This document shows, in pieces, positions 1,292-6,779 of a stretch of 64,000 nucleotides of DNA; within the stretch, counting starts at the first letter, position 1, and the number at the start of each line of letters is the position of its first letter. The stretch is from the NCBI GenBank assembly GCA_022447925.1, contig JAKUTS010000002.1, positions 62,001 through 126,000 on the forward strand, written 5' to 3'. A program made the translations under genes and the position numbers. The DNA is from SAR202 cluster bacterium. Lineage in GTDB: Bacteria; Chloroflexota; Dehalococcoidia; Lucifugimonadales; UBA2962. A model generated the notes under the pieces. The model did not search any database and was not told the DNA's origin. It saw only the letters and a list, made by a program, of their open reading frames with translations.

Positions 1292-2059
1292 ATGGTTAAA
1301 ACTAAAGTTGATTTCAACAGTGATATCGGCGAAAGCTTTGGGCAATACAAGCTAGGACTAGATGGGGAAATTATTCAACATGTAAGTTCAGTTAATATTG
1401 CCTGCGGTTTTCATGCAGGCGATCCAATGTGGATGAGCAAAACCGTACGGCTTGCTGAAAAAAATGGCGTTGGGATTGGTGCTCATCCTTCTTATCCTGA
1501 TCTACAGGGTTTTGGTAGAAGAAATATGAACATAGAACCGGAAGAAGTGAAAAATGACGTGATATATCAAATTGGAGCATTAACTGGTTTCACTTCAAAT
1601 AAAAAACTTCAACATGTAAAACCACATGGTGCAATGTACAACAATGCAGTAAAAGATGAGAAACTTGCCGCTGCTATCTGCAGCGCAATCATTGAAGTAG
1701 ACTCAAAGTTAATCTTATTAGCATTGTCTGGATCACGTTGGATATCTATAGCCAAAGAAATGGGCCTAAAAGTAGCCCAGGAAGTTTTTGCAGATCGAGC
1801 AATCAATAATGATGGAACTTTAGTGTCTCGATCAATTGATGGATCAGTTCTACATGATCCAGACCTAATAGCAGAAAGATCCTTAAAAATGATAAAACAA
1901 GGATATATTACTTCCATAGACGGTGAAGATGTTGAAGTAGATGCTGACAGCATATGTATGCATGGAGACAACCCTGCAGCCGTGAAAATTGCGGCGGAAG
2001 TCAAAGTGGCTCTAAAAAGTTCTGGAATTGAGATAGTTCCATTGTCAGAGCTGTTATAA
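1292..2059 (+). CDS. pxpA: 5-oxoprolinase subunit PxpA (LamB/YcsF family)
   Basis: This is a subunit of the ATP-dependent 5-oxoprolinase PxpABC, which opens pyroglutamate to glutamate. The protein has 255 residues, the normal family length. Hallmarks are DFNSDIGESFG (7-17), NIACGFHAGDP (35-45), GAHPSYPDLQGFGRR (63-77), VKPHGAMYN (109-117) and a late CMHGDNPAAV motif. An AGGAG lies about 14 bases before the ATG. It is the first gene of the tight pxpA-pxpB-pxpC run, which makes the assignment secure. The palindrome upstream may control it. Confidence 0.96.
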   Translation: MVKTKVDFNSDIGESFGQYKLGLDGEIIQHVSSVNIACGFHAGDPMWMSKTVRLAEKNGVGIGAHPSYPDLQGFGRRNMNIEPEEVKNDVIYQIGALTGFTSNKKLQHVKPHGAMYNNAVKDEKLAAAICSAIIEVDSKLILLALSGSRWISIAKEMGLKVAQEVFADRAINNDGTLVSRSIDGSVLHDPDLIAERSLKMIKQGYITSIDGEDVEVDADSICMHGDNPAAVKIAAEVKVALKSSGIEIVPLSELL

Positions 2060-2064
2060 CAGTT

Positions 2065-2829
2065 ATGGTTAAAAAACCCACTCTTAAGTACGCAGGTGAC
2101 CAAGGATTATTAGTTGAATTTGGGGATAAAATCGACGTTAAATTAAATGATGAAGTTAGAAACTTAACTTTTCAACTGGATCAAAGCAAAGAAGAATGGA
2201 TTATTGATTTAGTACCTTCTTATAAATCATTGCTGGTCATATTCAATCCGACACTTGCAACAAGGAAGTATATTGAAAACTACATCTTGGAACTTGCGAT
2301 AGATTTGGGGGAAACATCTGAATCGACTGATCGCGTAATAAAAATACCAACATTATATGGGGCAGATTTCGGGATGGATTTAGAATTTGTAGCTTCAAAC
2401 TCTAATTTAACTACAAAAGAAGTTATATCCCTTCATTCAGAACCAAACTATAGAGTTTATATGATAGGTTTCGCTCCGGGTTTCCCTTATCTAGGTGGTC
2501 TTAACAAAAAACTGTCCACTCCGAGACTAGATACTCCTAGAATCAAGATCCCATCTGGCTCAGTTGGCATCGCTGAATCACAGACCGGTATATATCCAAA
2601 TGATAGTCCTGGAGGATGGCAGCTAATTGGCCGTACACCTTTAAGCCTATTCGATACCAATAGAGAACAACCGTCACTACTAGTTGCTGGTGACTACATT
2701 AAATTCGAACCATTAGAAAGTCTAGAAGAATACTCTGATATCAAGACTGATATCGAATCAAATAATTACAAGCTTGAAATTAATCAGTTAGATAATCGAG
2801 AAAATAGCCAGTCAGATCGTCATGAATGA
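2065..2829 (+). CDS. pxpB: 5-oxoprolinase subunit PxpB (KipI family)
   Basis: This is a 254-residue carboxyltransferase-domain subunit 1 (AHS1/KipI), partner of PxpC in pyroglutamate cleavage. The family signature YMIGFAPGFPYLGGL begins near residue 132, followed by TPRLDTPR, a GSVGIAESQTGIYP segment and GGWQLIGRTP. The gene starts five bases after pxpA stops and overlaps pxpC by eight bases, as expected for subunits made in fixed ratio. The last 25 or so residues are a polar tail beyond the usual domain end. The homologous KipI is a sporulation kinase inhibitor in Bacillus, but the complete three-gene set favours the metabolic role. Confidence 0.95.
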   Translation: MVKKPTLKYAGDQGLLVEFGDKIDVKLNDEVRNLTFQLDQSKEEWIIDLVPSYKSLLVIFNPTLATRKYIENYILELAIDLGETSESTDRVIKIPTLYGADFGMDLEFVASNSNLTTKEVISLHSEPNYRVYMIGFAPGFPYLGGLNKKLSTPRLDTPRIKIPSGSVGIAESQTGIYPNDSPGGWQLIGRTPLSLFDTNREQPSLLVAGDYIKFEPLESLEEYSDIKTDIESNNYKLEINQLDNRENSQSDRHE

Positions 2830-3931
2830 AAAATCGATAACTATATTAGAGCCAGGTTTACTATCTAGCATACAGGACACGGGAAGATATGGATTCCAGA
2901 GATATGGTGTGCCGGTATCAGGAGCAATGGACAACTTCGCTTTGCGTGCAGCCAACGTATTGGTAGGCAATAAAATGAATGCTGCATGTATAGAAATGAC
3001 GGTACTTGGCCCTTCGATAAAATTTAACTATCCATCCTTAATTTCGATCACCGGAGGGGATTTATCTATAAAACTAGATGGGCAAAAAGTTGATCGTTGG
3101 TCTGCCATTCAGGTTGAAACAGGCTCTATATTAACGTCTGATGGAATTCAAGATGGAATGCGGGCTTACCTGGCAATCAACGGAGGTATTAATGTACCCA
3201 TTATTATGGGTAGTCGATCCACATATATTCCAGCAGGTTTTGGAGGATATAAAGGCAGACCATTAATGGGAGGAGATACATTGCTGGTCGGTGAGCCTAA
3301 TCCAACGACAAAGCACGAAGAGAGAACTCTCCCTGAAGATTTAGAGCCAGTACATTATGGACATTCACACATCATAAGAGTTGTATTAGGTCCACAAAAT
3401 ACCAATTTTACTTCTGCCGCTGTAAACACCTTTTTCGACAGTAGATATATCGTATCTAACAATTGCGACAGAGCTGGCTATCGGCTTAATGGGCCAACCC
3501 TGCAACATGAAACAAGCGCAGACATCATCTCGGATGGAACCCAAATTGGAAGCATCCAGGTACCCGCAGATGGTAATCCAATTATATTAATGTCAGACAG
3601 AGGCCCAACAGGTGGTTATGCAAAAATAGGCACGGTAATCTCCACAGACTTAGGCTTGATTGCTCAGTCACGCCCAGAAGACAACCTAGTTTTCAGACAA
3701 GTAAGTGTTAAAGAAGCTGAGGCCGCTTTCTTTGAACAAGAATCTATCCTTTATTCCATAGATCCAACTCTATTTAAAAATGCTTCAAATAAAGTTAAAT
3801 CCGCCCTGTCAGAAACCAGTTCTTCGCTATCACCATACATATACGAAGACTTAAAGAAAGTCCAAAGGAATGCAACAGTCAAAATAAAAGGCAAAACTTT
3901 CACTTTTGGCATTTCGATTGAGAGCAATTAG
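2822..3931 (+). CDS. pxpC: 5-oxoprolinase subunit PxpC (KipA, AHS2 family)
   Basis: This is the biotin-dependent-carboxylase-like subunit of 5-oxoprolinase, 369 residues. Family marks are ILEPGLLSSIQDTGRYG near the start, GVPVSGAMDNFALRAAN (about 29-45), the ISITGGDL turn, an AINGGI segment and MSDRGPTGGYAKIGTV near residue 265. The start codon lies inside the end of pxpB, giving an eight-base overlap. The final 60 residues are less conserved and lysine/serine rich. With pxpA and pxpB it forms the full enzyme, so this organism probably uses pyroglutamate as a carbon/nitrogen source or repairs damaged glutamine. Confidence 0.95.
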   Translation: MNEKSITILEPGLLSSIQDTGRYGFQRYGVPVSGAMDNFALRAANVLVGNKMNAACIEMTVLGPSIKFNYPSLISITGGDLSIKLDGQKVDRWSAIQVETGSILTSDGIQDGMRAYLAINGGINVPIIMGSRSTYIPAGFGGYKGRPLMGGDTLLVGEPNPTTKHEERTLPEDLEPVHYGHSHIIRVVLGPQNTNFTSAAVNTFFDSRYIVSNNCDRAGYRLNGPTLQHETSADIISDGTQIGSIQVPADGNPIILMSDRGPTGGYAKIGTVISTDLGLIAQSRPEDNLVFRQVSVKEAEAAFFEQESILYSIDPTLFKNASNKVKSALSETSSSLSPYIYEDLKKVQRNATVKIKGKTFTFGISIESN

Positions 3932-5543: not shown

Positions 5544-6293
5544 TTACTGAGCTGCTAAGCCACCATCGACCAACAATTCAGTACCAGTAACGTAACGAGA
5601 GTCGTCAGAAGCTAAATATAGAATCGCATAAGCCACTTCACTAGGAGAGCCTAATCTTCCTAAAAGTATTCGTGATTCTGATAATGCCCTACCTTCGGGA
5701 TTAGAAATATTCTGAGAAATCATGTCAGTTTCTATCGGGCCAGGAACGACGGCATTTACTCTTATTCCATATTTGGCATTTTGAATAGATGCATGCCTGG
5801 TTAACGATAATAATGCAGCTTTCGAAGCGCCGTAGGCCCCACCTCTCCAACTTCCCACCAATGCAGTGGTCGAAGAAACATTAATTATTGAACCTGATTT
5901 ATTTGATCTCATTGAATCTATCACTGCTTTTGTTCCCAAAAAGGCACCTTTTAAATTTACAGACATTAGTCTATCCCAATCATCCGGATTCTCCTCTTGG
6001 ATCGATTCAGTTCGGTAAATACCTGCGTTGTTAACCAACACGTCAATTGTTTTAAACCTATCTATTGATATTTCAACCAATGAAGTCCAGTCGGATTCGG
6101 AAGATACATCTAAGTTAACGAAGAAAGCTGATCCACCTGCTAGTGATATATCATTTGCAAGCTTAGAGCCCTTCTCTTCATTAGTATCAGAAACTACTAT
6201 TTTCGCTCTTTCAGTAGCAAATAACCGGCACTGAGCTTCTCCAATACCGCCAGCGGCTCCAGTTACAATTACTACCTTATTTAAAAGCCTCAT
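5544..6293 (-). CDS. Short-chain dehydrogenase/reductase (classical SDR)
   Basis: This is a 249-residue classical SDR. The Rossmann motif is T11-G-A-A-G-G-I-G18, D62 lies in the LDV adenine pocket, N88-N-A-G91 follows, and the catalytic set is a Ser at 140-141, Y154 and K158. After the catalytic Lys comes VVPGPIETDM, then a C-terminal TGTELLVDGG. The acidic VSDTNEE loop after strand 2 suggests NAD(H) rather than NADP(H). It is convergent with the cyclase gene, two bases apart. Substrate is not predictable from sequence; related proteins are annotated as cyclopentanol, glucose or 3-oxoacyl-ACP reductases. Confidence 0.92.
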   Translation of the reverse strand: MRLLNKVVIVTGAAGGIGEAQCRLFATERAKIVVSDTNEEKGSKLANDISLAGGSAFFVNLDVSSESDWTSLVEISIDRFKTIDVLVNNAGIYRTESIQEENPDDWDRLMSVNLKGAFLGTKAVIDSMRSNKSGSIINVSSTTALVGSWRGGAYGASKAALLSLTRHASIQNAKYGIRVNAVVPGPIETDMISQNISNPEGRALSESRILLGRLGSPSEVAYAILYLASDDSRYVTGTELLVDGGLAAQ

Positions 6294-6456: not shown

Positions 6457-6485
6457 TTGACAGAACGCCTGTTCTGTTCTAAAAT
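6457..6485 (+). promoter_or_regulatory. Sigma-70 promoter with an SOS-box-like operator in its spacer
   Basis: TTGACA (6457-6462), 17 bases, then TAAAAT (6480-6485): both hexamers and the spacing are near consensus. The spacer begins with GAAC-GCCT-GTTC (6463-6474), the GAAC-N4-GTTC form of a Gram-positive LexA box. It sits inside a longer perfect inverted repeat with seven-base arms, ACAGAAC and GTTCTGT, at 6460-6477. An operator in this place would block RNA polymerase directly. Calling it LexA-regulated is inference from the motif. Confidence 0.6.
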
Positions 6486-6512
6486 TGTTCTAAATTCAGC
6501 AGGAATCTAGTT

Positions 6513-6779
6513 TTGTATTATAACAACACGAGCCAATTACAATTGCCAGGTATAAGTAATGTTAAGTATGAGGATGTGTGTCCAAAAACAGTACTTCCAG
6601 GACAAAAAGTGGTCTACGTCGGTAGGATCGATGGTGGACCAGGATATGGTTCTATAGGAAGTGTAATTGAAACAAGAAACAAAAAGGCAGTAGTAGAAAT
6701 AAAACCGTTTACCGGTTATGAGCCTAAAATATGGTACATTCCATATTACCTATTGGGCTGTCCAAAAAACGCAGCCTAA
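6513..6779 (+). CDS. Small unknown protein with a KOW/SH3-like core
   Basis: I do not recognise this 88-residue protein. It starts with TTG, with AGGA about nine bases upstream, some 20 bases after the predicted transcription start. The middle (about 28-62) reads as a small beta-barrel: PGQKVVYVGRIDGG, a GYGSIGSVIETR turn, then KKAVVEIKPF, with conserved-looking Gly, Val and aromatic residues as in KOW or SH3-like folds. Two Cys lie near the start and end. It stands alone between convergent genes with its own strong promoter and a possible SOS operator. Function is not assigned. Confidence 0.62.
   Translation: MYYNNTSQLQLPGISNVKYEDVCPKTVLPGQKVVYVGRIDGGPGYGSIGSVIETRNKKAVVEIKPFTGYEPKIWYIPYYLLGCPKNAA

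Follow-up and report, generated by a model that had tools for sequence, protein, structure and literature searches.

The window, by which we mean the whole 64,000-nucleotide stretch of DNA that was analysed, covers positions 62001-126000 of a contig from a marine Chloroflexota bacterium, whose genome of 1.58 Mb is 87% complete. At the locus considered here, a gene for an 88-residue protein is preceded by a promoter with TTGACA and TAAAAT hexamers, and the 17-bp spacer between them opens with the dyad GAACGCCTGTTC, which lies within a perfect 7-4-7 palindrome (Table 1). The promoter, the dyad, the palindrome and the open reading frame, all of which the original prediction had picked out, were confirmed in the window sequence. 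The dyad is followed by two copies of GTTCTA; these are 11 bp apart here and 10 bp apart in most relatives, and the last copy holds a constant distance to TTGACA. They may be extra LexA half-sites, the site of another factor or part of the initiation region. Elsewhere in the window, three consecutive open reading frames (1292-3931) resemble, as judged by eye, the 5-oxoprolinase set pxpA, pxpB and pxpC.

Table 1 Features of the locus (positions in the window)
Feature	Position	Strand	Remarks
-35 hexamer TTGACA	6457-6462	+	Read in window; TTGAC kept in 30/30 relatives
17-bp spacer GAACGCCTGTTCTGTTC	6463-6479	+	Read in window; first 12 bases are GAACGCCTGTTC
LexA-type operator (predicted) GAACGCCTGTTC	6463-6474	+	In the -35/-10 spacer
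Perfect 7-4-7 palindrome ACAGAAC-GCCT-GTTCTGT	6460-6477	.	Read in window
Second GTTCTA half-site, over the -10 hexamer	6476-6481	+	Conserved; promoter-alignment columns 13-18, about 1.4-2.0 bits
-10 hexamer TAAAAT	6480-6485	+	Window sequence and promoter alignment of relatives
Third GTTCTA repeat, just 3' of -10, near expected transcription start	6487-6492	+	Kept in most relatives
Gene for 88-residue protein, TTG start, open ORF	6513-6779	+	Order-level family without a library name
Codons of N-terminal motif QLQLPGI	6534-6554	+	Q8 invariant in 29 sequences
Predicted SH3/KOW-like core, residues 29-83	6597-6761	+	AlphaFold2 and Foldseek
Divergent short-chain dehydrogenase (SDR)	5544-6293	-	Similar SDR gene on the same side in many relatives

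By itself, the 12-mer GAACN4GTTC is not significant, because the single copy in the 64-kb window compares with 0.71 expected from shuffled sequence, and the whole genome holds 10 copies against 23 of the reversed control; it is rarer than the control and shows no enrichment. The other copies in the genome lie mostly within open reading frames. As the 12-mer is at chance level, the case therefore rests on its position in the promoter and on its conservation.

Upstream of the relatives of the 88-residue gene, a TTGAC promoter with a GAACN4GTTC box or a one-base variant of it is found in 30 out of 30 regions, which extend from five genomes of the window's genus out to families whose proteins are about 40% identical and cover dozens of genera. 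The form GAACN4GTNC follows 1-2 bases after TTGAC in 25 of the 30; of the remaining five, four differ by a single base in the left half and the fifth has a complete box at a different spacing. The order in most regions is the box, then GTTCTA overlapping a TAWWNT -10 element, then the third GTTCTA just downstream. In an alignment of these 25 promoters, GAAC does not vary, and neither do the GT and the last C of the right half-site, in part because the box pattern served to pick the promoters; any of T, A, G and C occurs at the third position of the right half. Of 247 genomes across the order, 156 have the composite pattern TTGACN(1-8)GAACN4GTTCN(0-7)TANNNT, compared with 15 for the reversed pattern. 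The genes behind it encode ImuB-like proteins, FtsZ-like proteins, the 88-residue family and an unnamed protein of 430-460 residues. This last protein (MKTPTTYQREIA...) stands behind the box in family f2 (L127-L129, L132-L136), gave no Pfam match for the one member scanned and is a candidate for another SOS gene. In two distant genomes (L148, L155), genes of 113-123 codons with apparent membrane segments also lie behind the same promoter and box.

GAAC-N4-GTTC is the LexA box of Firmicutes and Actinobacteria, for example Bacillus subtilis and Mycobacterium tuberculosis (PMC3323433). The genome containing the window encodes one LexA, of 214 residues, with helix-turn-helix (59 bits) and S24 peptidase (96 bits) domains. 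The original prediction proposed looking for the motif upstream of lexA and recA, and this check was made. At lexA there are two GAACN4GTGC boxes, each one base off; GAACACTAGTGC is inside the 17-bp spacer of a TTGACA/TAAATT promoter and GAACATACGTGC is downstream of it. Of 21 genomes sampled in the order as a whole, 18 have GAACN4GTNC or its mirror form upstream of lexA and none has the reversed control, and the deviations in the boxes of the 88-residue gene (GTAC, GTGC, GTCC) fall at the same, third position as those at lexA. The recA box, GAACAAATGTGT, is imperfect, being two bases off GAACN4GTTC; it is upstream of the recA -35 element, is identical in the three genus genomes examined and, weak as it is, lies where it could act. 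Perfect GAACN4GTTC boxes are found upstream of ruvB in all five genomes of the genus and upstream of an ImuB-like gene in two of them. The sole domain match of this ImuB-like protein is to the PolY thumb, below the cut-off, and box-linked genes of similar kind in other parts of the order exceed the IMS cut-off. The typical lexA box of the order (L104-L123) is near the -10 element and has an AT centre (GAACATNNGTNC), unlike the GC-rich box centres at the 88-residue gene; several of these lexA loci have a second, degenerate box in addition.

From the boxes at ruvB, the ImuB-like gene and lexA, the conservation in relatives and the count of 156 genomes against 15, the operator is very probably that of LexA and the 88-residue gene an SOS gene, which supports the earlier proposal of a LexA operator and a candidate DNA-damage gene. 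We consider it highly likely that the promoter at 6457-6485 is under LexA control. A palindrome arising by chance before an ordinary housekeeping gene would be compatible with the expected frequency of the 12-mer in the window and its lack of enrichment in the genome, but it is ruled out, at a probability we regard as negligible, by the conservation of the box in the promoter region over dozens of genera down to about 40% protein identity, and by the excess of genomes with promoter plus box over the reversed pattern. It is also improbable, if less extremely so, that the box belongs to another repressor with the same dyad and that its resemblance to an SOS box is coincidental. The imperfect boxes at lexA and recA would fit such a repressor, and the conserved GTTCTA repeats downstream could bind something else; against this, the exact motif is common to ruvB and the ImuB-like genes, which are classic SOS genes, and the deviations tolerated are those seen at lexA.

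Metagenome-assembled genomes of SAR202/Dehalococcoidia contain the closest relatives of the 88-residue protein, at 65-74% identity. Of 250 genomes of its order, which consists of SAR202-like Dehalococcoidia, 55 have a relative, and these belong to many families; a profile search of 400 genomes across the phylum, a sample with few genomes of the order itself, found members in the same order only. As the original prediction had it, the protein has no known family: none was matched in Pfam, NCBIfam, PHROGs or PDB sequences. The best Pfam, NCBIfam and PDB matches, including an irrelevant gp120 cluster, were at chance level and were rejected. A phage origin was likewise rejected, with no relative in IMG/VR or phage records and PHROGs matches at chance level. 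Eleven residues are invariant among 29 sequences, including Q8, G30, Y35, G37, P43, G49, W74 and P77. Near the variable N-terminal tail is the family motif Q-[LIMF]-x-[LM]-P-G (QLxMPG). The AlphaFold2 model, built from four sequences, has seven strands with modest scores (pLDDT 71, pTM 0.61), and Foldseek matches it to KOW, L21e, NusG and NdhS-like barrels (best E 7e-3, TM about 0.5). A match to the KOW domain itself (PF00467) is found in one of the 29 members, at E 0.016, below the curated cut-off. The predicted KOW/SH3-like core is thus plausible as a fold, if weakly supported, and does not extend to membership of the KOW family.

The gene had also been described as lone, and this is true of the window's genus only. 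Among the relatives outside the genus, 24 have a readable next gene, and in 19 of these the 88-residue gene opens an operon, the next gene on the same strand being a member of the FtsZ family (in one of the 19, the next but one predicted open reading frame). At one extreme the two genes overlap by about 20 nt, and at the other about 300 nt separate them (operon with the 88-residue gene at L014, L016-L027, L029-L031, L033, L035 and L036; box-linked FtsZ at L144-L146, L151 and L152). The paralog scores 360-376 bits against TIGR00065 (cut-off 295), has both FtsZ Pfam domains and retains the tubulin signature GGGTG[TS]G and the catalytic T7 loop N[VI]DF[AS]D. The C-terminal peptide of FtsZ, LPPFLRR or similar, tethers the protein to FtsA and other membrane partners; it is absent from 25 of 25 aligned paralogs and present as PPF[LM]R[RK] in 10 of 10 housekeeping copies. 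The tree, which comprises 58 FtsZ rows, has a single branch with support 100/99 (200 of 200 bootstraps) that separates the 26 box-linked rows from the 32 others; rooting and internal order are unsure because long branches were flagged. A box-linked FtsZ paralog without the tethering peptide is widespread in this Chloroflexota order and is absent from the window's genus, which has one FtsZ, behind ftsA, that falls in the housekeeping group of the tree.

In many relatives a similar SDR gene lies on the same side as the divergent one here, and it marks the locus as orthologous. No remnant of the FtsZ paralog was detected in the window by tblastn, and as the SDR gene marks the locus there too, loss of the paralog from the window's genus is the simplest reading. 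The 88-residue gene occurs without the paralog in this genus and in a few other lineages, and families f10 and f14 lack the small gene and have the box 39-54 bp before the FtsZ-like gene. Since each persists alone in some lineages, neither strictly requires the other, and the persistence of the small gene without the paralog indicates that it has some value of its own.

We propose that the locus is a LexA-controlled promoter serving what was ancestrally an operon with an FtsZ paralog, and that the operon delays division after damage; we put the probability of this reading as a whole at about 0.75. From the sequence, its conservation, the co-occurrence with SOS genes, the operon order and the phylogeny we infer LexA binding, induction by damage, control of division and the partner of the small protein. 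In the undamaged cell, LexA would sit on GAACGCCTGTTC in the spacer and block RNA polymerase. DNA damage would lead to RecA-stimulated self-cleavage of LexA, the repressor would come off and the 88-residue protein would be made. In the ancestral layout, with the 88-residue gene first and the divergent FtsZ paralog second, the operon would probably delay division: the FtsZ that lacks the tail would poison the ring or remodel it, with the small protein as an adaptor. An FtsZ that is competent as a GTPase and untethered would be expected, when made after damage, to co-assemble with the ring and disturb it. In the window's genus, the target of the small protein is presumably the replication machinery or the one FtsZ present. 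The action of the small protein would be control of either division or replication, induced by damage. One specific form of this, which we offer tentatively, is that the polymerisation-competent, untethered FtsZ and its SH3-like adaptor halt division as a decoy, by co-assembly and not as a SulA-type inhibitor, and that the genus keeps the adaptor alone.

A different role for the small protein would leave the LexA operator in place and move the action to the replication fork: with QLxMPG docked on the beta sliding clamp and DNA or a polymerase bound by the SH3-like domain, the protein would limit replication, or switch it, while repair proceeds. The motif bears comparison with the clamp-binding motif (QxxLF, QLxLxL), since Q8 never varies and [LIM]x[LM] is strongly conserved beside the variable N-terminal tail, and clamp motifs of a similar kind occur in Hda (QLSLPL) and mycobacterial ImuB (QLPLWG). 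A role at the clamp would also account for the survival of the small gene without the FtsZ paralog. We nevertheless consider it less likely than not, as P-G stands where the classical QLxLF has an aromatic residue or leucine, the ImuB-like proteins of the order are without such a motif, bar one QLAMP, and the operon partner is FtsZ-like in most lineages.

A LexA-controlled operon that delays division, if borne out, would provide a testable SOS regulon for an abundant and mostly uncultured group of marine bacteria, add an unnamed protein family to that regulon and point to a damage-induced division checkpoint with a second FtsZ as its effector. As far as we know, this way of stopping division has not been described previously; our search of the open-access literature found no paper describing a damage checkpoint with a second FtsZ.

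The arrangement shares with the LexA/SOS regulon of GAAC-N4-GTTC type (PMC3323433) the dyad and its spacing, a box over the promoter, an encoded LexA with S24 peptidase and the targets ruvB and an ImuB-like gene. It differs from that regulon (PMC3323433) in that the lexA and recA boxes are one- or two-base variants (right half GTNC or GTGT), GTTCTA repeats follow the box at this gene, and an FtsZ paralog and a small protein without a name are among the targets. The small protein resembles KOW/SH3-like domains (NusG/Spt5 KOW, ribosomal L21e, MSSS) in its predicted small beta barrel and its G-P-x-x-G-x-x-G-x-V pattern, and is unlike them in falling below every family cut-off and in having the additional N-terminal QLxMPG and C-terminal W-x-[IV]-P-[YFH]. 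SulA, YneA, SidA and DivS/ChiZ are division inhibitors induced in the SOS response; to our knowledge, none of these systems uses a member of the FtsZ family, and the libraries report no sequence relation between them and the present protein. What they have in common with the locus described here is a small gene under LexA control (predicted in our case), which here is usually paired in an operon with a second gene that is itself a member of the FtsZ family.
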